NCBI RefSeq assembly: GCF_014750655.1
Contig: NZ_JABBXD010000002.1
Span: 157,088-221,087 of the forward strand
Length of the DNA stretch: 64,000 nucleotides
Source of the DNA: Salinimonas profundi
GTDB taxonomy: Bacteria; Pseudomonadota; Gammaproteobacteria; Enterobacterales; Alteromonadaceae
Direction: 5' to 3'
Shown here in pieces: positions 15,782 to 58,126 of this stretch (the first letter of the stretch is position 1; each line of letters begins with the position of its first letter). The notes beneath the pieces are model-generated. The model was not told the origin of the DNA. It saw only the letters and a list, made by a program, of their open reading frames with translations, and ran no database searches. The translations under genes were made by a program, and so were the position numbers.

Positions 15782-17875
15782 CTAGTTTGAAACGTGGCGG
15801 GAGGCTGAATCAGTGAACGAGAATCGCGCAGGCAGATTAGCCACCTCCTCCAGGGGGATGGGCTTACTAAACAGATACCCCTGTACATGGTCACAGCCAT
15901 GTTCAAGCAGATATTCCCACTGACTGACATGCTCAATACCTTCAGCACAAATGGTCAGGGACAAACGCTTAGCCAAATCAATAATGGAGTTGGTAACCAG
16001 ACGACTTCGATCGGAAGTGCCTAATTCACGCACAAACTGCCGGTCAATTTTCAACGTATCGATAGAAATCTGGGTAAGATAACTTAAAGAGGAATAGCCG
16101 GTACCAAAGTCATCAAGCGCGATCGCGCAGCCCATATTACTCAACCGACGGAAAAACTTATTGGCAAACGCAAAGTTCTCCAGGTATGCGGACTCAGTTA
16201 CTTCAAACTCGATATATTCAGGGTTAACCTGCTGCTGCGTAAAGATACTGTAGATAAGATCGAACAGTCCTGAATGGCGTAGGTCATGGCCTGACAAATT
16301 CACTGCCACGCGGAATTTGTCTTCAAAAACAGACTGCAACAGTGGCAGCTCTATACTGACCCGCTCAATTACCCAGCGGGTGATTGCCGATATTTTACCG
16401 CTTTGCTCGGCGATAGGAATGAACTCTGCCGGATTGATCATTCCAAATTCCGGGTGCTGCCAGCGTATCAGCGCCTCAAAGCCCACAAGTTTGCCGTCAC
16501 GTGCCACTTTTGGCTGATAGTAAAGGACAAACTCATCCTGAGAAATACCCTGATCGATACTGTTTGCAATAGACAGTTTACGCTTGTGCGACTCAACCAT
16601 TTCGTGCGTGAAGATAGTATAGATCCCCCGCCCTTTTGCTTTTGAACGATACATCGCTAAGTCTGCATTGCTCATCAGCTGACTGAGCTCAAAATTAGCA
16701 TCTGACGCTTTTGCGATGCCAATACTCACGCCAACGGTTAGCGCAAGACCACGAAAATGAAAGGGTTCAGCAAAGGCGTCAATGACCCGGGTTGCCAGAT
16801 TTTTTAGACTAAGCTCCGTAACATCACGATCCGGTACGATAATAAACTCATCGCCCCCCAGTCGCGCAACCAGGTCTCCGTCACGCAGCATGGTCGTGAC
16901 TCGGTCAGCCACATCAATCAGAATCAGATCGCCGATTTCATGGCCCAGCGAATCATTAATCCCTTTAAAGCCATCCAAATCAAAAAACAGCAGTGCGATA
17001 TCTTTTTCCAGACGGCGGGAGCGAGCCAGTTCAAGCCGCAGGTTATCCATCACAAACTGGCGGTTTGGTAAACCTGTCAGGCTGTCAAAATTTGCCAGCC
17101 GCGTCATGGTCTGTTGCTGTTCCACTAACGTCTGATTTTGCTCCTGGTTTATAGTCAGCTCGGCTTCAATCGCATCCAGCAGCGTATTGACATGAAAAGC
17201 CAGCTGCCCGACTTCATTTGCAGAGCTTGTATCGAAACGCTGCGTATAATCTTTGGTAAAACTCAGCTGGTGCGTAAATGCCGACAGACGACTTAATGGT
17301 GACAACCACCGGTTTAGTAAAAAGAGTGTGATAGCTATCGTCAGTAACGTGGCTACGATGACAAATGGTAAGACATGCAGAAGCAGCGTCTGCCAGCTGT
17401 CACTGACAGGGGTTTCCACATCATTGATAATGACCACATAGCCCAGCGGCACACCATTGTCAGAAATGCGATTAATCGCAATCAGTTCATCGCCCACCCG
17501 GTAGCTGCCAGAGGGTTGTGTCAGCAGCCTGTCAAACTGACGTTCTTTCGCCAAATTGAATATTGATGAGGAAAGTGCTGGCTGCGAATAGATCAGTCCG
17601 CGTGCATTGTCATAGACTCTCGCCCCCAGAATATGCTGGTAGGACGCCAGATTAGTCAGTTCCTTTTTAATACGATCTTTATCGGGGCGGCGTTTAAGTA
17701 ACTCTGGGGTGAGATCTATGGCCAGATTCGCGGTCAGCGCGTTAAGATCCTTTTTAACTGACGCTGTATAAAGTTTTTCATGTTCGATAACCGTCAGCCA
17801 CATTACCAGCGCCGAGGTGATCAGCACCGCGCTGACCAGTAAAATGGCAATGGGCGTTTTTATAGTTCTTAGCAC
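15782..17875 (-). CDS. Membrane-bound GGDEF-EAL cyclic-di-GMP enzyme
   Basis: A 697-residue two-helix membrane protein with a periplasmic sensor (about 30-175), a HAMP linker after the second helix (about 180-255), a GGDEF domain (about 262-430) and an EAL domain (about 440-690). The cyclase motif RLGGDEF is intact and preceded at the right spacing by RDGD, an RxxD product-inhibition site. The phosphodiesterase motif is intact (FEALIRW, and DDFGTGYSS later), so both activities are possible. The start is a GTG with only a weak upstream Shine-Dalgarno sequence. Confidence 0.9.
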   Translation of the reverse strand: MLRTIKTPIAILLVSAVLITSALVMWLTVIEHEKLYTASVKKDLNALTANLAIDLTPELLKRRPDKDRIKKELTNLASYQHILGARVYDNARGLIYSQPALSSSIFNLAKERQFDRLLTQPSGSYRVGDELIAINRISDNGVPLGYVVIINDVETPVSDSWQTLLLHVLPFVIVATLLTIAITLFLLNRWLSPLSRLSAFTHQLSFTKDYTQRFDTSSANEVGQLAFHVNTLLDAIEAELTINQEQNQTLVEQQQTMTRLANFDSLTGLPNRQFVMDNLRLELARSRRLEKDIALLFFDLDGFKGINDSLGHEIGDLILIDVADRVTTMLRDGDLVARLGGDEFIIVPDRDVTELSLKNLATRVIDAFAEPFHFRGLALTVGVSIGIAKASDANFELSQLMSNADLAMYRSKAKGRGIYTIFTHEMVESHKRKLSIANSIDQGISQDEFVLYYQPKVARDGKLVGFEALIRWQHPEFGMINPAEFIPIAEQSGKISAITRWVIERVSIELPLLQSVFEDKFRVAVNLSGHDLRHSGLFDLIYSIFTQQQVNPEYIEFEVTESAYLENFAFANKFFRRLSNMGCAIALDDFGTGYSSLSYLTQISIDTLKIDRQFVRELGTSDRSRLVTNSIIDLAKRLSLTICAEGIEHVSQWEYLLEHGCDHVQGYLFSKPIPLEEVANLPARFSFTDSASRHVSN

Positions 17876-21991: not shown

Positions 21992-23173
21992 ATGACTGTA
22001 CCTGCACTTGATGAATTACGCACACGGATAACTGACCTGGATAGTGAGTTGCTGACTTTACTCGCTGAGCGTCGTGCTTTGACCAATGAGGTGGCAGAAA
22101 CAAAAATCTCACATCAAATTCCGGTACGGGATATTAAGCGTGAGGAGCAATTACTGATTCGACTGATTAAACATGGTCAGGAGAAAGGGCTGGATGCACA
22201 TTACGTCACGCAGGTTTTTCACGTCATCATTGAAGACTCAGTGTTAAATCAGCAGGCAATGTTAGCCGAGCGTGCCAATCCTGGCAGCGCCTTACCGTTA
22301 AATCGTGTGGCGTTTTTAGGTGACCGGGGCTCCTACTCTTATCTTGCTACGCAAAAGTACTTTTCCCGCCGTCCCGGGGAGTTACTGGAAATCGGCTGCC
22401 AGAGTTTCAGTGAAATCGTGCAAAAGGTTGAACACGCGGAGGCTGACTACGCGGTTCTGCCCATCGAAAACACCACCTCCGGCAGTATTAATGAAGTGTA
22501 TGACCAGCTGCAACATACAGAGCTCAGCATTATCGGCGAACTGACACACCCCATTCGTCACGCCTTACTGGTTGCCACGTCCACCTCGCTGGACAAGATA
22601 AAAACCTTGTATGCGCACCCGCAGGTATTCACACAGTGCAGCCACTTTTTAGCTGAACTGGGGAACGTTGAGGTAAAAACTATCGACAGTACCTCGTCGG
22701 CCATGCTGAAAGTCAGTGAATTGCAACGTGATGATGTTGCCGCTATCGGCAGCGAAGCCGGCGGTAATCTCTATGGGCTGTCAGCCATTAAGTCAAACCT
22801 TGCCAATCAAAAAGAAAATCACAGCCGTTTTATTGTGGTCGCGCGTCAGGCAGTGAATGTGCCTTTGCAGGTGCCGGCTAAAACCACCCTGGTAATGTCT
22901 ACCATTCAAAAGCCCGGTTCACTGGTGGAAGCGTTGATGGTGCTCAAAAATAATGAAATAAACATGACGAAACTGGAGTCACGCCCTATGCCGGGCAACC
23001 CGTGGGAAGAAATGTTTTACATTGATGTTGAGGGCAATACCGCAGACGGCCCATTGCAGCAGGCCATTGATGAGCTGAAAAAGATTACGCGGTATCTTAA
23101 AGTGTTAGGCTGTTATCCTTCAGAGGAAATCAGCCCAACAAAGGTCGCTGCGGCAAGTGCGTTATCTGAATAA
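21992..23173 (+). CDS. pheA: Chorismate mutase / prephenate dehydratase
   Basis: A bifunctional enzyme committing chorismate to phenylalanine. It has 393 residues: an AroQ chorismate mutase domain (about 5-90, LDSELLTLLAERRAL), a prephenate dehydratase domain (about 105-285, FLGDRGSYSYLA and the conserved NHSRFIVV near 272), and a C-terminal ACT regulatory domain (about 298-378) with KPGSLVEAL and the Phe-binding ESRPMPG motif. GGAGAG precedes the ATG. It is regulated by the leader attenuator and converges on the diguanylate cyclase gene with only 11 bp between them. Confidence 0.97.
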   Translation: MTVPALDELRTRITDLDSELLTLLAERRALTNEVAETKISHQIPVRDIKREEQLLIRLIKHGQEKGLDAHYVTQVFHVIIEDSVLNQQAMLAERANPGSALPLNRVAFLGDRGSYSYLATQKYFSRRPGELLEIGCQSFSEIVQKVEHAEADYAVLPIENTTSGSINEVYDQLQHTELSIIGELTHPIRHALLVATSTSLDKIKTLYAHPQVFTQCSHFLAELGNVEVKTIDSTSSAMLKVSELQRDDVAAIGSEAGGNLYGLSAIKSNLANQKENHSRFIVVARQAVNVPLQVPAKTTLVMSTIQKPGSLVEALMVLKNNEINMTKLESRPMPGNPWEEMFYIDVEGNTADGPLQQAIDELKKITRYLKVLGCYPSEEISPTKVAAASALSE

Positions 23174-23184
23174 AAAAGCAAGCG

Positions 23185-24936
23185 TTAAACGGGTTGCTCT
23201 GTAAGTGAGCCTGAGACGATTTCAGGCTCAAACCCGCAAATCTTATTGCGTCCGGTTTCTTTGCTTCGGTAAAGTGCTTCATCAGCGCTGGCATACAGAC
23301 TATTAAAGTCATAGCCGCACTGGGCAGAGTCTGCCACGCCGAAGCTGGCGGTAACTGAAAAGTCATGTCCGGTAGGTGTAGTATCTATTGCAGCAATTGC
23401 ACTGCGGTAATTCTCTGTAATCACCATGGCTTTTTGAACGGTGCAGCCGGGTAACAGTAACGCAAACTCCTCGCCGCCCATTCGCCCAAGAATATCCTGC
23501 CCCCGGCATACACGCTGAATGGTTTTTACCACCTCACGTAATACCCAGTCACCAACCACATGTCCGTAAGAGTCATTAATGCGTTTGAACAAGTCCAGGT
23601 CAAAGATAACAAACGCGAGGTCTTGCTCCGTGCGCGTGTGATAACGCAAATTAGACTGCGCCAACTCCGTAAAATAGTGCCGGTTTGCCACCCCGGTAAG
23701 CTTATCGGTTCGGGCCTGAAGCTTAAATTTGCGATGAATACGGCGTGTGACAATCAACCAGGTGATAATCACTGCAGCCAGTAACAGAAGAGAAAGAATA
23801 ACAAGGTAGCTATTCTGCAACTCTTTTTTATGAAGCCTGGCTTCGGTTTTTAATAGCGCATTTTCTTTATCCAGCAATTTAATCTGGTTGGCTTTTTCAA
23901 TTGCTTCGTTTTTGGCTTTGGCTATTGCTATCTGCTTTGCAGAAACTTCGTCCACGAACGCTTTTTGAAGCTCAGCGTATTGTTTGTAAAATGTTAAGGC
24001 CTTGCTACTGTTGTTTCTGTACTCTTCGATTAGATACAGCACATATAATGCATCGACGTTGGGTTTTGTTGCCCCCATTTCAGACGCTATATTCAAAGCA
24101 GTTAAAGCCTGTACTTCGGCCTCACTGATACTATTCGATTCAAAAAGTAGCGTTGACATCAAAGAGTGATATTCGGCTTTGATTCGGGGGTAGCTGATAG
24201 AATCAAATATTGCCCTGTTTTCTATCAGCAGCTCCTGCGCTGCTCCGTGATCCGCATTATTGAGATAGTTTTTTGCCTCAAGAATAATAGTAGAGGCTAT
24301 CACTACGTCCTCTTCTGCGAGTTTGCATGCTTCAAGACCTTCTTTGAAGTTATCTTTGGAAACAATATGTTGCCGATTTATCTGAGACTCAAAAATTAAA
24401 TTTTTACCGAAACAGACAGAGCGCAGATCTGAAGTCAGCGAAAGCGCTTTAGATGCGCTACTATATGCATTGTCATACTCGTCCACCTGGTTATAAAATA
24501 TTGCCAGTCCCAGGTATGCTTGTGCAGCAGCTTCAGAGCCAGGCGCCACAAGCTGAGATAGTAATTGCGTGACCGCTTCAAAACCTTCGCTATAATTACG
24601 TGTAATTGCGAAGATATTCAGAAGTGCGGTGGAAGCATGCAGCCGAAGCTCAGAATCAGCCGTATTTGCGATTACACGCTCATATTTTTCAATCGCCGCC
24701 AGCGGCTGGCCTGAAAAAGCTTCCCGGTACCCATCCAAATACTCAAATTCCAGTTTTTGCTCGATACTGAAAGAATGGTTGTGTGTCGCTAAGTTATCTA
24801 ACAGAGCAGCAAATTCCACAGGTGCTTTACTTTTCAACTTCCAGGCTTGAGCAAACATGCCCTCGACATCTTTTTCAGATGCGAACGCACAGAACGCCCA
24901 GAGACTTAGTAAGAAGAAAAGTAAAGCGCTTTTCAT
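23185..24936 (-). CDS. TPR-GGDEF diguanylate cyclase
   Basis: A 583-residue protein with a signal peptide (about 1-19), a periplasmic TPR-rich region (about 25-330), a coiled coil (about 335-370), one membrane helix (about 376-396) and a cytoplasmic GGDEF domain (about 410-570). The active-site motif is GGEEF, preceded at five residues by RGQD, an RxxD inhibition site, so it should be an active, feedback-controlled cyclase. It starts two bases after the stop of the 66-residue small protein, so the two are probably co-translated. This places it at the end of the putative borosin gene run. Confidence 0.88.
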   Translation of the reverse strand: MKSALLFFLLSLWAFCAFASEKDVEGMFAQAWKLKSKAPVEFAALLDNLATHNHSFSIEQKLEFEYLDGYREAFSGQPLAAIEKYERVIANTADSELRLHASTALLNIFAITRNYSEGFEAVTQLLSQLVAPGSEAAAQAYLGLAIFYNQVDEYDNAYSSASKALSLTSDLRSVCFGKNLIFESQINRQHIVSKDNFKEGLEACKLAEEDVVIASTIILEAKNYLNNADHGAAQELLIENRAIFDSISYPRIKAEYHSLMSTLLFESNSISEAEVQALTALNIASEMGATKPNVDALYVLYLIEEYRNNSSKALTFYKQYAELQKAFVDEVSAKQIAIAKAKNEAIEKANQIKLLDKENALLKTEARLHKKELQNSYLVILSLLLLAAVIITWLIVTRRIHRKFKLQARTDKLTGVANRHYFTELAQSNLRYHTRTEQDLAFVIFDLDLFKRINDSYGHVVGDWVLREVVKTIQRVCRGQDILGRMGGEEFALLLPGCTVQKAMVITENYRSAIAAIDTTPTGHDFSVTASFGVADSAQCGYDFNSLYASADEALYRSKETGRNKICGFEPEIVSGSLTEQPV

Positions 24937-24938
24937 GA

Positions 24939-25139
24939 TTAGTGCATTATTACCTTATCTGAATCAGAAGGTGCTGGTGTATCGGTTTCTTCCTCATCAT
25001 CTTTTTCAGGAACCATCAAACACCACTGTTTCCTGTTTTCAGGGAGTTCATTATCAATTTTTTCAGAAAAAATCGTTTTCGCTTCACTGCGTTTTTGTGC
25101 ATCTGCGCCTAACTGCGCTAACAACTGAATTGCAGACAT
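24939..25139 (-). CDS. 66-residue putative borosin precursor (SonA-like)
   Basis: I place the start at the ATG at 25139, with GAGAGAAG just upstream; an in-frame GTG four codons earlier is unlikely. The N-terminus MSAIQLLAQLGADAQ is an amphipathic helix and recalls the start of Shewanella SonA, the substrate of the methyltransferase SonM. The middle holds a hydrophobic WCLMVP segment (about 39-44) followed by an acidic DDEEETD tract, and the chain ends DKVIMH. The likely modified stretch is WCLMVP or the VIMH terminus. Evidence for the role is resemblance from memory plus the neighbouring SonM-type gene, so this is inference. Alternatively it may be a small partner of the adjacent cyclase. 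Confidence 0.6.
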   Translation of the reverse strand: MSAIQLLAQLGADAQKRSEAKTIFSEKIDNELPENRKQWCLMVPEKDDEEETDTPAPSDSDKVIMH

Positions 25140-25223
25140 AACTTCTCTCACTTATTATAAATTTTTATCAATATACTGCGTTATTTAGGTTATCACTATA
25201 AACGCAACACTGTTAATTTTTTG

Positions 25224-25736
25224 TCAAATCACTTCCAGTTTGAGTTCGTCAACGCGCGCCACAATTACATCATAATATGAGTTTTGGACTACTTCTTCGA
25301 ACCTGAAGCCTAAACTAGTCAGTAATTTTTTAATGACGAGGTGACTCTTTGCGAACCTTGCAATTACCTCTGTCTGATTCAAATCTTTAAATGCAAATTG
25401 ACACACTCTGCTCAGGGCCTCTGACGAGTAACCTTTTCCATTTTGACTTTGAATAAGCATAATCCCTATCTCACACTCATCGTGATTCAAGAATTTAAGC
25501 ATTATCAATCCGCAATCTGATTTTGAGTGCTTGTTAGTAACCCTCCATATGTATTGTTTAAAATAAGCTTTCTGATTATTTCGAATCGCTGACTCAAATA
25601 ATACCTCGGCTTTTTCAGCACTTAATGCAGGGCCAATTTTGCGCATTACTTTGGGGTCCTGATATAGTGCGATAAACATTGCGCGATCAGATTCATTCAA
25701 TAAACGAAAATCCAGCCTGCGTGAACTAAATTCCAT
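25224..25736 (-). CDS. GNAT-family acetyltransferase (RimJ/RimL-like)
   Basis: A 170-residue N-acetyltransferase. I choose the ATG at 25736, which overlaps the methyltransferase stop as TGATG. Recognisable parts are the RimJ/L-like start RRLDFRLLNESD, motif A QNGKGYSSEAL (about 113-123, acetyl-CoA pyrophosphate loop) and the late SLGFRFEEV helix-strand. Substrate is unknown. In this setting it may act on the precursor peptide, its product or a self-protection target. Base composition looks more AT-rich than its neighbours, which would fit acquisition by transfer. Confidence 0.8.
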   Translation of the reverse strand: MEFSSRRLDFRLLNESDRAMFIALYQDPKVMRKIGPALSAEKAEVLFESAIRNNQKAYFKQYIWRVTNKHSKSDCGLIMLKFLNHDECEIGIMLIQSQNGKGYSSEALSRVCQFAFKDLNQTEVIARFAKSHLVIKKLLTSLGFRFEEVVQNSYYDVIVARVDELKLEVI

Positions 25737-26527
25737 CACATATTCTCTGACAGCTTATTCAGTCGGGCGACCATCTCAGCATCTTCTGTTTTAGTTTGTG
25801 ATGGCGGGATAACCAACGTTGTATGCTGATGTACTTTTGCACTACTCAATTCATTTAGCGCCAGCCACTCGATACGCACATCTTCAATCGGCAAGACGGC
25901 AGCTTCATACAGCGCCACCTGGTGTGAGTCAGGATAGAAAGTCTGCAAACATTCCTGAAGTAAGGCTCGGTAGCGATTGTCAGATGTGAATGCTTTATGG
26001 GAGCGGTCCCCGGCCATCCCCACCTGCCATAAAATTAATAACGCAGAGGTATCCACTACCTTACGATTTACCATAAATTGTGTGGCTTCGTAGTGAATAC
26101 AGCCGGACGTACCCGGATCCAACCCCATATCCGCGTACAGGCAATCTTCGGCGGAAACACCCGGCTCCATGTGCGCGTGGTACCCTTCCTGTCTGGCTTG
26201 TTGAATAACCTTATGCGGCGCGAGGGCAAACACACCGGGATGGCCATAAAATGCGCCCACCACTTTTTTACCGGCCCGCACTTCGGTCATCATTGCATCG
26301 ACCATCTCGCGATATGTTTGTCGACGATCTTTGCCCTCAGCGTAAAACGGTTGCAGGCTTCTCACATCCTGGTTCATTTCTTTTATCCAAAGCTCAACAT
26401 AACTGTCAGAAGCGCTGGAAAAAACAACATCTGCCTGTTCAATGTGACTTCTGGAAAGTGGCGTAATGTGTGAGCCAAGTGTCATTCCTACGCCGACACA
26501 GACTATGCTGCCTTGTTGTGTTGTCAT
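25736..26527 (-). CDS. SonM-like borosin alpha-N-methyltransferase
   Basis: A class III SAM-dependent methyltransferase (tetrapyrrole-methylase fold), 263 residues. The start SIVCVGVGMTLGSHITPLSR and the FYGHPGVF loop (93-100) fit the fold. Residues Tyr62, Arg68 and Tyr72 (FYAEGKDRRQTY) reproduce the Tyr-x5-Arg-x3-Tyr catalytic pattern of the peptide-backbone methylating borosin enzymes (OphMA Tyr66/Arg72/Tyr76). Overall it strongly resembles Shewanella SonM as I remember it. There is no C-terminal core extension, so it would be the split type acting on a separate precursor. A porphyrin or corrin methylase is unlikely: no cobalamin or sirohaem genes are nearby. The ATG overlaps the protease stop (ATGA). 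Confidence 0.85.
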   Translation of the reverse strand: MTTQQGSIVCVGVGMTLGSHITPLSRSHIEQADVVFSSASDSYVELWIKEMNQDVRSLQPFYAEGKDRRQTYREMVDAMMTEVRAGKKVVGAFYGHPGVFALAPHKVIQQARQEGYHAHMEPGVSAEDCLYADMGLDPGTSGCIHYEATQFMVNRKVVDTSALLILWQVGMAGDRSHKAFTSDNRYRALLQECLQTFYPDSHQVALYEAAVLPIEDVRIEWLALNELSSAKVHQHTTLVIPPSQTKTEDAEMVARLNKLSENM

Positions 26528-27843
26528 GTATTTGTTTTACCTTTGCTGGCAGGTTGCAACGCGTGATGAATGGCCTGAATCATATGACCCGGAATATCAA
26601 CTTTGGTGGCAAAGTGTATCTCACCGGTGTCACCTGCGCTGCGATCAAAAATGGTGTAGTAGTTATTTAACAGGGGTAATCCCAGAATGATTTGGTTTGG
26701 CCAGCCTGGCAGATAGCAGAACTTAAAGGTTGCTTCGCCGGGTGCAGGTGCGTGTACCTGCCAGTAAGTGTCCGGCGTTAGCGTCAGCGTGATCGCTTCG
26801 TCGTTACTCCCCAGACAGGTGATATGAATAGCTGGCCACTGGCTCAAATCAAGTGACGCGGCATCAATGCCGACTTCCTCGCCAGTGAAAGCTTCGTAGT
26901 GCGCTAACAGCGGTGCGAAGTTCGCGTTGCAGGCGATCAGTTGCCTCTTCATTTCTTCGAAAATTGCCTGAGGCAGTACTATGGCCGATGCGCCGCTATC
27001 GACAATGCCATTGGTGCAGTAGCTTTCGACATGCTTATCATCAAGCACCGGGCCGGGAATCAGCTCGCCGTTACCAACTTGAATGCTCTGCACATGTACG
27101 TTGTAGTATTTATCGTGTAGCACAGCCAGGGTTTTAACTGGCTGCGTATACAGATCACGGTGAAGTAGCGGGTCACCCAGTACAAACAGGCCATGATTCA
27201 GGTGGTGCGCCAGCAACTTTTCAACAGGCTGATGCGTTTGCGTATGATAAATACTGGATCGATGGGTCAGTAGGGCGAACTGATTGGCTATCGCCCCGCT
27301 TTCTTCAAGACGGGTAAAGTACGGTGAAACATGGGTTTTCGGGTAGCGATGCAAAAACTGCGAATAGTGCGAAACATCCTGTGCAGTATGCTGCATTACA
27401 TAAGGATAGGTTTCGCGCGGATTGACGTTTTCGGTCGTGAGAAATTCGGTAAGGTCGTAGGCGTTATCCAGCGACGTATAGGCCAGCCCGAGGATCCCAT
27501 CAGCATCTAGAAAGCTGGCCACCTGCGTTTGCGATGTCAGCGCGATGGATACGTCATCCAGCGCCACGTGATGGTAAGGCAAACCTGCACGGATACTGGT
27601 CTGCACTACAGGCCCGTACCAGCCACCTTTACCATATTGCACGTCCTGGACCAGTGTGGTGCCCGTTAAATGACTGTCCCGGCCAGGCTGATAACTGTCA
27701 TCATGGACGACAAGCGCACTACTGCCAGTATCTAAAATGAGGTTTACCGGGTGATGTTGGGCGCCAACATAAAAGCGCGCAGTGTACCCCCCTTTAGCGT
27801 ACACGTTGGTTAACGGTACTCTGATGGATGTCACATCAGCCAC
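26524..27843 (-). CDS. Pepsin-like (family A1) aspartic protease
   Basis: A 439-residue full-length two-lobed pepsin homologue, which is rare in bacteria; the shewasins of Shewanella are the known relatives. Catalytic motifs are Asp38-Thr-Gly-Ser in NLILDTGSSALVV and Asp282-Ser-Gly-Ala in GIVDSGASAIVLP. The flap Tyr70 lies in QYGKGG, and ADGILGLAYTSLDN matches the pepsin DGILGLAY strand. I see no signal peptide or prosegment, so it is probably cytoplasmic and not a secreted zymogen. The start is a GTG at 27843 with an unclear ribosome-binding site; a GTG three codons later is possible. Four-base overlap with the methyltransferase suggests a joint role, for example leader-peptide removal (inference). 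Confidence 0.88.
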   Translation of the reverse strand: MADVTSIRVPLTNVYAKGGYTARFYVGAQHHPVNLILDTGSSALVVHDDSYQPGRDSHLTGTTLVQDVQYGKGGWYGPVVQTSIRAGLPYHHVALDDVSIALTSQTQVASFLDADGILGLAYTSLDNAYDLTEFLTTENVNPRETYPYVMQHTAQDVSHYSQFLHRYPKTHVSPYFTRLEESGAIANQFALLTHRSSIYHTQTHQPVEKLLAHHLNHGLFVLGDPLLHRDLYTQPVKTLAVLHDKYYNVHVQSIQVGNGELIPGPVLDDKHVESYCTNGIVDSGASAIVLPQAIFEEMKRQLIACNANFAPLLAHYEAFTGEEVGIDAASLDLSQWPAIHITCLGSNDEAITLTLTPDTYWQVHAPAPGEATFKFCYLPGWPNQIILGLPLLNNYYTIFDRSAGDTGEIHFATKVDIPGHMIQAIHHALQPASKGKTNT

Positions 27844-28013: not shown

Positions 28014-29147
28014 TCACATTTTGTCATCATCGGCTTTCAGTAAAAGCTTTTTACTGTCCTTCAAGGACTTGCGCGCATAGGGGCCAAACCACTGTGCAAT
28101 GCTATTAAACTGCTTAATAAACGCTGACTTATCATTTTTTCTGAGAAGCGACAGCGCTTCACCAAAGCGTTCATGAAAACGCGCCAGCAATTCAAAATTT
28201 TCTGGATTATTGAAAATGATATCCCCGTAGAGCTCAGGCGGTTGAGCGAATAAGCGGCCTACCATCGCCAGTTCCAGCCGGTATATGGGCGAACTGAAGG
28301 TTTTAAGCACAGACAAATCAGGGTTTTCGCGGCTTAAATGAGCACCATAAACAAATGTGTTGAAATGGCGCATAACCTGAATATACGCCATTGCCTCATC
28401 ATGCTCTGTGGCACCACTTTTATGTAATGTCGCGCCCCACGTTGTCATCTGATCCATCAGCCACTGACATTTTTCAGTGTCGCGACCTTCAGTAACCACA
28501 ACAACCTGTTTAATCATACCCGGCGCATCAGGCCCGAACATAGGATGCAACCCGATAACTGGTCCGGCATGCGTCGCCAGCATGGCCTCTAAAGGACGCT
28601 TTTTAATACTGGTGACATCAGCAAGGATACAGTCAGGCTTTAGCATGGTCAGCGTCGCGATCACCTGCTCAGTCACATTAATCGGTACTGCCACAACGAC
28701 CACATCAGCCTGAGACAGCCTTTTTTGAGCCAGACCATTATCCCAGTCAGTCTTTTCTACCGAGGCAACCGAGTATCCGCTTTTAGAAAACAGCGAAACA
28801 AACACACTGCCCAATGCGCCACCGCCGCCGATAACGACAATATTGCCAACATCGGGATTCACGCAACGATAGCGGTTGTTTTGCGTGTGATAGGATTCAC
28901 GCATAATCCGGCGCAACAAATCCTCAATCAAATCAGGGGAAACGCCGGCGTGCTCAGCCTGCTCACGGCGTGAAGCAATCAGGCTTTTTTCCCGCTCAGG
29001 CACATAAACCGGCACGCCCGATTCAGCTTTAATTTTGCCTACTTCTGTGGTTAACGCCGCCCTTTGGGCTAATAGGTCTACAAGTTGCGAGTCTAGCGCA
29101 TCAATGCCCTGACGTAATTTATCAAGGCGTTGTGATGTATCAGTCAT
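28014..29147 (-). CDS. tyrA: Chorismate mutase / prephenate dehydrogenase
   Basis: A bifunctional tyrosine-branch enzyme of 377 residues. The AroQ mutase domain covers about 5-90 (LDSQLVDLLAQRAALTTEVG). The NAD-binding prephenate dehydrogenase domain covers about 98-377, with the fingerprint VVIGGGGALGSVF and the substrate motif GLHPMFGPD near 198-206. It follows aroF by 20 bp, the usual aroF-tyrA operon, and would be co-regulated by the TyrR-like box upstream of aroF. Confidence 0.97.
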   Translation of the reverse strand: MTDTSQRLDKLRQGIDALDSQLVDLLAQRAALTTEVGKIKAESGVPVYVPEREKSLIASRREQAEHAGVSPDLIEDLLRRIMRESYHTQNNRYRCVNPDVGNIVVIGGGGALGSVFVSLFSKSGYSVASVEKTDWDNGLAQKRLSQADVVVVAVPINVTEQVIATLTMLKPDCILADVTSIKKRPLEAMLATHAGPVIGLHPMFGPDAPGMIKQVVVVTEGRDTEKCQWLMDQMTTWGATLHKSGATEHDEAMAYIQVMRHFNTFVYGAHLSRENPDLSVLKTFSSPIYRLELAMVGRLFAQPPELYGDIIFNNPENFELLARFHERFGEALSLLRKNDKSAFIKQFNSIAQWFGPYARKSLKDSKKLLLKADDDKM

Positions 29148-53608: not shown

Positions 53609-56600
53609 ATGATAAGGCTTTTAAAGCCACTCAAAGGTGTATTGGTGCGCTCAACCATCGCTCGCTTATGTACAATATTTTTGTTGGTGTGCTGCGGACC
53701 TTTTTTCGCGTCATTCGCACACGCCATCTCCGTCACAGACATTTATTTCGAAGAACTAACGCTTCGGGATGGTCTTTCTGACACGACAATCCTGGATATT
53801 GCTGAAGGACCGGATGGCTATATCTGGATCGCGACCCTGGGCGGCTTAAACCGTTATTCAGGCTATGAGTTTAAGCAGTATTTGCCTAATAGTTCAAATG
53901 CCGCATCCTTACCTTCAGGCGTTGTAAGATCACTCTTTGTTTCTGCTGAAGGTGCATTATGGGTTGGTACGCTTGATGGGTTAGCACGGTATCAGCCAGA
54001 GAGCGATGATTTCAAAGTCTTCAATGAATCAAACTCGTCATTAAAATCGAATAACATTTCATTTATTGGTTCTAGCAGCGGTGGTGATTTATTGGTTGCA
54101 GCCGGTGCACGTATTTATCGCTATGATAATGACAGCGGAATCATTAAACCCTATGATTCCAAATTGCAATTTGACTCGCGCGTTGTCACAATTCACGATG
54201 AAGCTTCTAAGTTGTTAATCGGTACGTATAGCAACGGTCTATTTATATATGACAAAACACAAAAAGAATTGTTTTCAGCCACTGACGCTAATCCATATTC
54301 TTTTAATATAAGTGCTCAAAGGATAAGAGACATTGCTGTTATCCAAGGTGACTACTGGATAGCAACTAATCATGGTGTATATCAAGTTGCCGGTTCGGGA
54401 AAAACTAAAAAGCAACTTACTGTTTCAACTCATCCGCTTATGGGCTCGGACAATATCTTTAACATTCTGGAAGTTGATGAAGATATTTGGCTGGGAACCG
54501 ACAATAACTTATCAATTTACTCACCCGTTCAAGAACAATTTGTATCTATAGGACCGCAGAATGCGGAACTAACCGGACTAACACAACGTTATATTTTCAG
54601 CGGCCTGCAGGACTCCACAGGAAAAATATGGATGGGTTCTTATCACGGCCTGTTTACGTACAATCCACAGCTAGATAATAGCCGCTTATTTTCTAACGAG
54701 AAAGCATTTCAGGAAAAAACAGAAGGCAATGCCATCTGGGCGTTGGATGAAGATGCGCAGGGTAAGGTTTGGTTTGTAACGCAAAGCGAAGGGTTAGGTA
54801 GGTTTAATAAAGAAACTGGTGACATAAGTTATTTTCTGGAAAATACAGGCAAAACCTTTTGGGACCTGGTTATTGATGATAATGGACTGTTTTGGATTGC
54901 AAATTCCAACGGAGTTACAGTATACAAGCTTGCCAACGACAACTTGACCGAAATTGTAACTTTCTTACCGAACCAATTAGTTGACACGATTCTATATCAA
55001 GACGGTCAAGTTTGGTTTTCAACTGCTAATAAAAACGTCCAACTAATGGCCGTCCAAAGTAAGTTGCTAAAAGATGGAAATGACAATATTGATGTGACCG
55101 ATTTAATGGAAACATATTATGTCGACATTTCTACTACTCAAAGCTCGCTTCTACACATTGACTCTAAAGGAAGAGTATGGCTGAACTCTACCGACAATAT
55201 AATTATTTACGAACCGAAGAAGAAAAAAATAATTAAGCAGATTACTTTACCTAATACCAGCGGCAGAGTTTTCTTTGTATACGAGTGGAGAAATTCATTT
55301 TGGCTCTTAAATACTAATAATACTATTTTTCAATTGAACCAAAAAAGCTTTGAACTCAAGCGACAATCACAGATGGGCCAGGCTGAGGGTACAGTTCTTT
55401 CGGCTCAGGGTGTGGATAGCACTGTTTGGATCACCACAAATAACACTATTTATCAATTAGATTTACTAACATTAGACAAGAAAAACACGCTATATTTGGA
55501 AGAGCTCAATTACAATGATTTCAATGAGAACTCTGTACTGCAGACTAGCTCTGGTGAACTTATTTTTGGTGGAACAAAAGGGTTTAACATAATTAAACCC
55601 GAGGAGCTTAGTGAAAAATCTGAAGCTCCTACCATAACAAAAGCACCTCAGGTCACTTTCGTACGGGCCTTTGGTGATAATTTGCCTGACGGTGATTATG
55701 CAAGTCTTAACGGTCAAAATGTCGTTGATCTTGCCTATGATGAATCTCGTTTCACTATAAATTTCGAGCTGGTTAACCCTACAAACCCTACATTGGTTGA
55801 TTACCGATATCGTTTACTTGGCTTTGATGAAAACTGGATAGGTGCAGAAAATAGCCGTACTGCACAGTTCAACAATGTCTCTTTCGGCACATATCAATTT
55901 GAGGTACAAGCTAGAGAAAAAGGTAAGGCGTGGTCTGATTCTGCTGTTAAGAAAATTCAGATAGCCCGCCCTCCTTGGTTGCATACAGTAGCGCTCGTTT
56001 TTTACGCTGTTGTGGTAAGTGCATTTTTATTAAGACAGTACCAGGTCCGAAAGCAAAATCAGCAAGCCATCCGCGAATCAGAAGAACGGTTGAAGCTTAC
56101 TCTGTGGAGCAGTGGTGATGAACTTTGGGACTGGGATGTCTATCGCGGTCAGGTCTATCGGTCAAATACCTGGGGGACACTGGATTTTCCGCAGGATAAC
56201 ATCCGCACCTCTACTGCTTATGATGCCAATATTCATCCTAATGACCTGATGCGGGTTCAGGAAGCATTAAAAAGTCACCTTGAGGATAAAACGGACTTTT
56301 ACGAGCTGGCTTACCGGGCGAAGACGTTTAGCAATCAGTGGATATGGATTCTGGACCGGGGCAAGGTGGTTACCCGAGACCACAACAACCAGCCCGTCCG
56401 AATGACAGGAACGCTGAAAAACATTCACCATCTCAAAGAAGCGGAAGAGCAACTGAATCTTTTCAAGCGCTCCATCGAGAATATCTCTGAAGGCGTATTT
56501 ATAACCAACACGAACTTCAAATTTATTTCGGTGAATAATGCTTATTGTACTTATACGGGGGAAACCCGCGACCAGGCGCTGGCCTCATATATGTACTTCC

Positions 56601-58126
56601 ATCAGTACCCCGAAGCATTTACCGAGGAAATTAAAAAGACGCTTAAAACTAAAGGTAACTGGTTCGGCGAAGTGGAGTCAGTTCGTGTTAACGGCGAAAA
56701 GTTTGAAATTGAACTCAATATAGACGCCGTCCATGACGAAGATGGCCGTATCAGTCATTTTGTTGGCGTATTTTCAGACATTACTTCACGAAAAAGTACT
56801 GAAAAAGAGCTGTTGAAACTGGCTAATGCAGACCCGCTCACTGACTTGCCCAACCGGTCATTCTTTCAGGCAAGCCATCAGAATTTGGTGCGGCGGGCTG
56901 AGGCGCATGCCCTGCTTTGCCTGGACATGGATAATTTTAAGAAAATTAATGATTCATTGGGACATCAAACCGGTGATGTGCTGATTAAACAAATTGCCAA
57001 ACGCATTCAGCGCATGACTGGCACAACAGCAACCTGTTATCGTCTGGGTGGTGATGAGTTCAGTATCCTGCTTGAAGATAAATCTGACATTCACACTATC
57101 ACCCACTTCGCTCAAGGCCTTTTGGATAGCCTTGCCAGGCCGTTTATCATCAATAAGCAAGAGTTTGTCCTTGGTGCCAGTATCGGTATCGCGTTTTACC
57201 CTGAAGACGGCACCACCTCTCAGGAAATGCTGAAAAATGCAGATACGGCCATGTATTTTGCGAAAAATAATGGCGGTAACAGCTACAAATTCTTCAGCGG
57301 TGAAATGAACCAGAACGCTGTCAGGCAGCTGCAAATTGAAAATCTTATTCGTCAGGGCATAAAGGACGATTTGTTCACTGTATATTATCAGCCCAAGGTT
57401 GATATCTTTACCGGGCGTCTGGTGAGTATGGAGGCCCTGGTACGCTTTGAACATCCGCATAAGGGCATCGTCAGCCCTGGCCAGTTTATACCGCTGGCCG
57501 AGCAGACAGGGCAAATTATCGAGATTGGCGATCAGGTTTTACGTAAAGCTCTGAGTGATACTAAACGATGGGTTAATCAGGGTATATTCACTGGCCGGGT
57601 CGCCGTCAACATTTCCGCCAAACAATTTGAGTTGCCTGATTTGGATGAACGTATTATCAAAGTGCTTAACGATGTCGGGTTATCCCCACTTCATCTTGAG
57701 TGCGAACTTACCGAAGGCACATTGATGGAGCACCCAGAACAGGGTCTTTTGATGATGGAACGTTTACGTGAGCGGGGTATCCATCTGGCATTGGATGACT
57801 TTGGCACAGGCTATTCATCGCTGGCTTATCTAAAACGCTTTCCGTTAAATACCCTGAAAATAGATAAGGCCTTTATTGACGATATTGCAAATAGCAATGT
57901 TGACCGTCATATGGCTGCATCTATTATTAATATTGCCCACAATCTGGGACTCAAGGTAGTTGCAGAAGGTGTTGAGCATGAGAATCAGCTGTCTATTCTG
58001 CGTCAATATGAGTGTGAAATGCTTCAGGGCTACCTATACAGCAAGCCGCTGCCCGCTGATCGTTTCGAGCAATTGCTCAACGAAAACCAAAAACTACACG
58101 AGCTCATTAACCAACCTAAGGTGTAG
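53609..58126 (+). CDS. Propeller-Y_Y_Y-PAS-PAS-GGDEF-EAL signalling protein
   Basis: A 1505-residue one-protein signalling system. It has a signal sequence (about 1-39), a periplasmic sensor of two-component-regulator propeller repeats (about 45-690; GPDGYIWIATLGGLNRY and similar blades), and a Y_Y_Y domain (about 700-785; VDYRYRLLGFDENWIGAENS). A membrane helix (about 793-812) and two PAS domains (about 825-1060) follow. GGDEF (about 1070-1235, YRLGGDEF intact but no RxxD inhibition site) and EAL (about 1245-1495, MEALVRF and DDFGTGYSS intact) complete it. The ligand is probably a polysaccharide or its breakdown product, as for related hybrid sensors (inference). The sensor half is visibly more AT-rich than the enzymatic half. 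Confidence 0.9.
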   Translation: MIRLLKPLKGVLVRSTIARLCTIFLLVCCGPFFASFAHAISVTDIYFEELTLRDGLSDTTILDIAEGPDGYIWIATLGGLNRYSGYEFKQYLPNSSNAASLPSGVVRSLFVSAEGALWVGTLDGLARYQPESDDFKVFNESNSSLKSNNISFIGSSSGGDLLVAAGARIYRYDNDSGIIKPYDSKLQFDSRVVTIHDEASKLLIGTYSNGLFIYDKTQKELFSATDANPYSFNISAQRIRDIAVIQGDYWIATNHGVYQVAGSGKTKKQLTVSTHPLMGSDNIFNILEVDEDIWLGTDNNLSIYSPVQEQFVSIGPQNAELTGLTQRYIFSGLQDSTGKIWMGSYHGLFTYNPQLDNSRLFSNEKAFQEKTEGNAIWALDEDAQGKVWFVTQSEGLGRFNKETGDISYFLENTGKTFWDLVIDDNGLFWIANSNGVTVYKLANDNLTEIVTFLPNQLVDTILYQDGQVWFSTANKNVQLMAVQSKLLKDGNDNIDVTDLMETYYVDISTTQSSLLHIDSKGRVWLNSTDNIIIYEPKKKKIIKQITLPNTSGRVFFVYEWRNSFWLLNTNNTIFQLNQKSFELKRQSQMGQAEGTVLSAQGVDSTVWITTNNTIYQLDLLTLDKKNTLYLEELNYNDFNENSVLQTSSGELIFGGTKGFNIIKPEELSEKSEAPTITKAPQVTFVRAFGDNLPDGDYASLNGQNVVDLAYDESRFTINFELVNPTNPTLVDYRYRLLGFDENWIGAENSRTAQFNNVSFGTYQFEVQAREKGKAWSDSAVKKIQIARPPWLHTVALVFYAVVVSAFLLRQYQVRKQNQQAIRESEERLKLTLWSSGDELWDWDVYRGQVYRSNTWGTLDFPQDNIRTSTAYDANIHPNDLMRVQEALKSHLEDKTDFYELAYRAKTFSNQWIWILDRGKVVTRDHNNQPVRMTGTLKNIHHLKEAEEQLNLFKRSIENISEGVFITNTNFKFISVNNAYCTYTGETRDQALASYMYFHQYPEAFTEEIKKTLKTKGNWFGEVESVRVNGEKFEIELNIDAVHDEDGRISHFVGVFSDITSRKSTEKELLKLANADPLTDLPNRSFFQASHQNLVRRAEAHALLCLDMDNFKKINDSLGHQTGDVLIKQIAKRIQRMTGTTATCYRLGGDEFSILLEDKSDIHTITHFAQGLLDSLARPFIINKQEFVLGASIGIAFYPEDGTTSQEMLKNADTAMYFAKNNGGNSYKFFSGEMNQNAVRQLQIENLIRQGIKDDLFTVYYQPKVDIFTGRLVSMEALVRFEHPHKGIVSPGQFIPLAEQTGQIIEIGDQVLRKALSDTKRWVNQGIFTGRVAVNISAKQFELPDLDERIIKVLNDVGLSPLHLECELTEGTLMEHPEQGLLMMERLRERGIHLALDDFGTGYSSLAYLKRFPLNTLKIDKAFIDDIANSNVDRHMAASIINIAHNLGLKVVAEGVEHENQLSILRQYECEMLQGYLYSKPLPADRFEQLLNENQKLHELINQPKV

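Follow-up and report, generated by a model that had tools for sequence, protein, structure and literature searches.

The 64,000-nucleotide stretch of the Salinimonas profundi genome analysed here (the window) contains a five-gene cassette on the minus strand (23185-27843) that probably forms a split-borosin peptide system with its own protease and its own receptor, in which the product would be the ligand of a sensor and control cyclic di-GMP (c-di-GMP). From the upstream end, the cassette encodes a pepsin homologue, a SonM-type methyltransferase, a GNAT acetyltransferase, a small precursor and a GGDEF protein. The proposal is carried by gene identities, intact catalytic residues, conserved linkage, a match between the pepsin and one type of precursor core, and a repeat domain that appears nearly exclusive to borosin loci, all read from sequence. 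An earlier sequence-only reading had named the same five-gene run, and the open reading frames (ORFs) are indeed present as listed below; Pfam and PDB searches support the identity of four of the proteins, and the precursor alone has no significant match.

26524-27843, minus strand: family A1 pepsin homologue of the shewasin type, 439 amino acids, GTG start (Pfam PF00026, E 4.9e-17)
25736-26527, minus strand: putative SonM-type peptide backbone alpha-N-methyltransferase, 263 amino acids (PDB SonM 7ltc, E 2e-69; OphA 5n4i, E 2.6e-47)
26312-26344, minus strand: predicted catalytic residues Y62, R68 and Y72, equivalent to SonM Y58, R67 and Y71 (alignment; SonM mutant kinetics in PMC8429565)
25224-25736, minus strand: GNAT acetyltransferase, 170 amino acids from the ATG at 25736 (Pfam Acetyltransf_3, E 2.5e-22)
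24939-25139, minus strand: SonA-like borosin precursor, 66 amino acids from the ATG at 25139 (family profile, with SonA as top PDB matches)
24987-25025, minus strand: core-like segment WCLMVPEKDDEEE, residues 39-51, with hydrophobic patch, P44 and acidic tail (P44 conservation; tracks the pepsin)
23185-24936, minus strand: predicted membrane-anchored sensor with signal peptide, helical tetratricopeptide repeats (TPR), transmembrane helix and diguanylate cyclase domain, 583 amino acids (GGDEF, E 2.2e-42)
24019-24867, minus strand: predicted periplasmic helical-repeat domain, residues 24-306, with C175 and C204 (AlphaFold model; alignment)
23746-23808, minus strand: transmembrane segment, residues ~377-397 (by eye; inside model helix 310-409)
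23464-23478, minus strand: GGEEF catalytic motif, with RGQD before it (sequence)

The gene junctions are as the sequence-only reading described them and can be read straight from the letters. An ATGA overlap (26527-26524) joins the pepsin stop to the SonM start, a TGATG overlap (25738-25734) joins the SonM stop to the GNAT start, an 84-bp gap separates GNAT from the precursor, and the precursor stop (24941-24939) is followed after 2 bp by the ATG of the cyclase (24936).

By every sequence test usable here, the methyltransferase is a borosin enzyme. It matches crystallised SonM and fungal OphA far better than a precorrin methyltransferase, and a cobalamin/sirohaem methyltransferase is ruled out on that comparison (precorrin-2 methyltransferase E 4e-5 vs SonM E 2e-69). 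The Y62/R68/Y72 pattern (spacing 6 and 4) that the sequence-only reading had pointed out is invariant in 24 of 24 aligned rows, as are Y94, F100 and W167, which likewise align with SonM residues of described role (PMC8429565 for all six). The cassette thus resembles the type IV split borosin SonM/SonA of Shewanella oneidensis (PMC8429565) in having a separate methyltransferase and short precursor, here with the GNAT gene between the two ORFs, in sharing the catalytic Tyr/Arg/Tyr and a SonA-like leader, and in the company of a TPR cyclase: locus L123 carries a SonA orthologue (E 3e-14 to 7ltc_B) adjoining such a cyclase, so the sensor is present in the S. oneidensis type too. The eight sampled loci whose SonM groups with the PDB SonM, in contrast, have no linked pepsin, no GNAT and precursors lacking the PAE-acidic tail, all of which the cassette has. 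The S. profundi genome also holds a second SonM locus (L030:7842-10578; G000:C1:319841) with SonM, a 72-amino-acid precursor with an EPTDP-type core and a TPR cyclase, to which neither pepsin nor GNAT is linked. Elsewhere, a SonM domain lies within a 638-amino-acid ORF on a short contig where no sensor was found (L226:600-2516, G376), possibly a fused borosin.

The pepsin homologue belongs to the shewasin family. It shows the two lobes of family A1, each with its Asp in a D-T/S-G motif: D38 (DTGSS; 27730-27732) and D282 (DSGAS; 26998-27000) are invariant in 21 relatives, and the best 60 listed PDB matches of a pepsin profile are all BACE1 or BACE2. No signal peptide was seen on it by eye. An ORF in another genome (L130:7067-8404, equal to G151:C1:969066-970403) has coordinates identical to those tabulated for Sama_0787, shewasin A (PMC2761423), and its locus runs pepsin, GNAT, SonM, SonA, TPR cyclase. 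Proteolytic activity has been reported for shewasin A and shewasin D, and shewasin A was the first bacterial pepsin with documented activity (PMC4814920); the first activity-documented bacterial pepsin thus sits in a split-borosin locus much like that of the window. Word searches of PMC2761423 and PMC4814920 for terms of gene context, such as operon, adjacent and neighbour, found none, and Leal et al. (PMC4814920) write that what these proteases do has yet to be discovered. That role becomes directly testable through the tie of the pepsins to one borosin core type, and the system, if true, would be the first probable function proposed for bacterial pepsins.

A survey of genomes detected the pepsin in 13 of 98 relatives, in 11 of 58 genomes from the family containing the Sama_0787 genome, in 34 of 345 from the order and in 2 of 369 from the class, as well as on one named Aliiglaciecola contig. 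With overlaps counted once these are 49 different genomes, and every one of them (49/49) encodes SonM, against a background of 84/345 order genomes (E up to 1e-20) and 10/369 class genomes (E up to 1e-30); because the pepsin genomes are related to one another, these counts are not independent events. Pepsin and SonM lie within 3 kb of each other in 34 of the 49 and apart in 15 (by eye from coordinates), one of the linked genomes (G130) having a pepsin fragment only. The five-gene linkage is kept across several families and genomic sites, which answers in the affirmative whether the five genes co-occur elsewhere, as the sequence-only reading had proposed to survey. GNAT adjoins SonM in 31/31 pepsin-linked SonM ORFs. 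One supported group of a SonM tree (69 rows; support 98/90) takes in every one of the 30 pepsin-linked rows, 20 of the 24 core rows and 19 rows labelled other; the PDB SonM lies in another group with eight Shewanella-family loci. The pepsin label requires 11 changes on this tree, compared with 27.3 when shuffled, and has therefore been gained or lost several times.

The precursor is recognisable mainly through its family. As a single sequence the 66-residue protein has no significant PDB match, but a profile of 30 pepsin-type precursors, built without SonA rows, has SonA chains as all seven of its best PDB matches (E 0.004-0.006, a modest score). P44 is kept in at least 90% of the 30 precursors and is their best conserved position. 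Pepsin-linked precursors have a hydrophobic patch followed mostly by P-A/E-E/D/K and then an acidic tail; the window, for example, has WCLMVPEKDDEEE, and VVCLMVPAEDEE is found in relatives. By this core-type pattern, which was written after viewing the sequences and is not independent of them, the 94 genomes with fetched precursors divide into 43 with both core and pepsin, nine with the core only, two with pepsin only and 40 with neither. The match extends to unlinked genes: in genus g7, for which all listed SonM loci of 17 genomes were taken in, the core type occurs in 10/10 SonM genomes with pepsin vs 0/7 without, and the pepsin is never SonM-linked. GNAT follows the core type as well, standing beside SonM in 50/54 ORFs with it vs 3/76 others.

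Of the two pepsin-only genomes, G130 (L140:5533-8448) has the pepsin as a 104-amino-acid fragment, both adjoining precursors lack the core proline and only a fragment of the cyclase was found; G193 has a near variant core, CCIVQPEPDEDEE. Four further pepsin genomes have, on inspection, precursors of the core type; in one of them it takes the form of the variant APARDDDD, and one, G792, belongs to another order. The core-only genomes include G015 and G042, both from the same genus as the window. A replacement protease in such genomes is possible; no co-oriented protease was found beside SonM in seven loci viewed by eye or by Pfam on eight neighbouring ORFs. On the opposite strand, L214 has an FtsH at a distance of 1.7 kb from the GNAT, and L211 has a Lon-like protein adjoining SonM; both look like housekeeping genes. 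In the closest relative the GNAT is split over two overlapping frames (L018:6699-7210). Two loci (L343:7160-9095 and L344:7906-9940) have, by eye, precursors with two core-like stretches, and another small ORF resembling a precursor stands there between pepsin and GNAT.

In the sampled loci of this order, no partner of SonM is more conserved than the sensor family. Among 135 loci selected for diversity, not at random, with 130 SonM ORFs, a same-strand sensor-family protein lies within 3 kb of 126 of these ORFs; the four without one are in L140, L225, L226 and L210, the last of which has its sensor on the opposite strand. The nearest sensor ends in GGDEF in 96 cases and in a histidine kinase in 15, and consists of repeats alone in 15. 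A candidate small ORF stands directly upstream of 121 of 152 sensor ORFs, and 114 of these small ORFs match a SonA profile that was refined on them; away from sensor starts the profile matched 17 of 7,606 ORFs, of which 15 look like further precursors. Seen from SonM, the precursor is directly upstream of the sensor in 113/126 loci, the 13 exceptions being L140, L225, L226, eight g7 loci, and two loci (L287, L288) with a visible precursor that falls below the profile. SonM lies beyond the far side of the sensor in 18 of the 114 precursor-sensor pairs. Since neighbours of SonM supplied the profiles for GNAT, sensor and SonA, the counts of all three favour such neighbours, and a whole-genome search with the repeat domain of the window sensor serves as a control free of that bias. 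It gave 20 matches in 31 genomes; for 19 of them SonM is no more than 3.2 kb away and part of the same gene run, and the remaining one is in a genome without SonM. A sensor so nearly confined to borosin loci suggests signalling by split-borosin peptides of marine bacteria, and both the differing output domains and the frequent pairing of precursor and sensor favour sensing over chance proximity.

The AlphaFold model of the window sensor (mean predicted local distance difference test score, pLDDT, 91) has helical hairpins at 24-306, a long helix at 310-409 and then the GGDEF domain. The sequence-only reading had called this protein a TPR-diguanylate cyclase and assigned it no role. The cyclase part held, with Pfam GGDEF and a Foldseek match to 3ign (E 7e-15); the TPR part finds no Pfam family on the window protein itself and is backed by the model and by TPR_12 matches in 17 of 42 relatives. 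G487, G488, E489, E490 and F491 are invariant or nearly so in 42 rows, and the RGQD before GGEEF we take to be the RxxD inhibitory-site pattern. Outside the GGDEF part, C175 and C204 are the sole residues invariant in the 42 rows and may form a periplasmic disulphide. In the best 50 of 1614 matches, Foldseek of the sensor model returned only GGDEF proteins and nothing on TPR ligands.

Several arrangements of the sensor vary on this theme. Two tandem precursor-sensor pairs stand behind a single SonM in L110:1293-5499, and in loci L251, L254 and L258, from pepsin-free g7 genomes, three repeat-only sensors are arrayed beside SonM in the order precursor, SonM, sensors. In L127, L128 and L342, what comes after SonM-SonA is a hybrid histidine kinase with TPR, more than 1000 amino acids long and with receiver and Hpt domains (by Pfam in L127 and L128). 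A TPR cyclase of the sensor family occurs as an orphan in G011, where SonM was not found (L290:4863-7529); the ORF upstream of it holds what is presumably a peptide of the double-glycine leader type, MRELKANDIQKISGG..., and the sensor family may thus pair with another peptide class.

We propose that SonM would bind the N-terminal leader of the precursor and N-methylate backbone amides within WCLMVP, its hydrophobic patch. Next, the pepsin homologue, which probably resides in the cytoplasm, would cut the precursor and free the methylated core, and GNAT could acetylate the new N-terminus or another amine of it; the cleavage site in the precursor could not be fixed. The product would reach the periplasm or the medium and bind the periplasmic repeat domain of the sensor, setting the output of the diguanylate cyclase and thereby raising or lowering c-di-GMP. 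None of the five genes encodes a transporter, so the methylated backbone may let the peptide cross membranes unaided. A wider proposal, tentative and with chances a little short of even, is that this is a new form of Gram-negative signalling in which a ribosomal peptide with N-methylated backbone, which a cytoplasmic pepsin would release and a GNAT would cap, acts on a dedicated periplasmic TPR receptor with exchangeable output (c-di-GMP or phosphorelay), and that these pepsins exist to mature it.

The RRNPP receptors of Gram-positives are cytoplasmic TPR proteins with a helix-turn-helix or phosphatase output. Like them, the cassette places a helical-repeat receptor beside a small peptide gene and has exchangeable outputs. 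It falls outside that family, however: its receptor, in which a signal peptide and a transmembrane segment were seen by eye, is a membrane sensor with GGDEF, histidine kinase or no output, the repeat domain is predicted to be periplasmic and the peptide to be backbone-methylated. The RcbAB system of Vibrio vulnificus (PMC12282931) likewise has a TPR domain controlling a GGDEF domain, but there RcbB is regulated by another TPR protein instead of a small peptide, and the word 'methyltransferase' is absent from the main text. A pepsin as protease of a ribosomally synthesized and post-translationally modified peptide (RiPP) would be unusual: in a review of RiPP leader proteases (PMC10885120) a word search found no pepsin, and 'aspart' in one reference title only. 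Literature searches returned no paper on borosins with an aspartic protease or with diguanylate, an earlier notice in Crone 2023 or Imani 2022 being possible, and nothing related for RiPPs with pepsin and Shewanella.

A number of observations weigh against a peptide signal of this kind. The precursor has no export signal, whereas the repeat domain is predicted to be periplasmic, and the precursor model is weak (pLDDT 67), with helices at 3-12 and 14-31 only instead of five. In vitro the activity optimum of shewasins is close to pH 4, and shewasin D is found mainly in the cytoplasm (PMC4814920), a poor fit with cutting in a neutral cytoplasm. The nine core-type genomes without a detected pepsin mean that the protease cannot be essential everywhere, and G015 has a chemotaxis receptor beside SonM in its place. 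On the sensor side, 38/152 sensor ORFs lack a directly preceding profile match, the eight g7 loci are ordered precursor, SonM, repeat-only sensor, and outside the order the sensor was detected in 2/8 SonM genomes with these profiles, which may miss distant sensors. Across 73 loci, SonA distances correlate more closely with those of the repeat part than with those of the GGDEF part in the same protein (partial correlation 0.38 vs 0.11, and 0.30 vs 0.16 with SonM held constant), a correlation that is weak, since linked genes share history, and given without a significance test.

The cassette could instead make a borosin natural product that is matured by pepsin and GNAT and acts outside the cell on other organisms, with the cyclase sensing something else and doing no more than adjust production or lifestyle. 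Cyclases can regulate many traits, and omphalotin A, the founding borosin product, is nematocidal (PMC11285071). We consider this unlikely, as the repeat domain occurs almost solely beside SonM, stays constant while the outputs vary, and usually has the precursor gene directly before its own. Less probable still is that the whole precursor protein, methylated or not, docks on both SonM and the sensor, with the pepsin merely turning it over and no small product formed. SonM and full-length SonA do form crystallisable complexes (PMC8429565), and the conserved precursor-sensor gene pair would fit docking as well. The missing export signal on the precursor, set against a repeat domain predicted to be periplasmic, counts against this too, and so does P44, the best conserved position of pepsin-type precursors, which lies in the core-like segment. 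Peptide signalling through the sensor remains our preferred reading.

The cassette is flanked by two convergent genes:

21992-23173, plus strand: pheA (present in 59/59 genus genomes)
28014-29147, minus strand: tyrA (adjoins pheA in 16/30 examined loci)

The sequence-only reading had regarded this position as typical of an insertion. The flanks are as it named them, and the insertion is borne out in part: among the 30 of 59 pheA loci examined, tyrA lies 53-391 bp away in 16, the cyclase adjoins pheA in six and neither is in the flank in eight. The adjacency of pheA and tyrA in those 16 would suit genes that are mere passengers of a mobile insertion, with no joint function. This we regard as highly improbable, because this set of genes recurs elsewhere in genomes of the genus and also in other families, and the pepsin tracks the core type even where unlinked; conserved co-occurrence already contradicts it. 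A chance neighbourhood is likewise ruled out by the sensor linkage, the pepsin-core match and the whole-genome repeat-domain control. PADLOC matched none of the five proteins (0/5) to an anti-phage defence system.

A consensus promoter scan of the minus strand for the precursor-cyclase pair found none, with fewer sites than in shuffles; one looser pattern gave none either, and the stretch before the precursor has no special fold (z -0.48). In G042, the cassette without pepsin occupies the same pheA-tyrA place in the opposite orientation. Elsewhere in the window, translations viewed by eye show two large GGDEF-EAL-like proteins (15782-17875 and 53609-58126).

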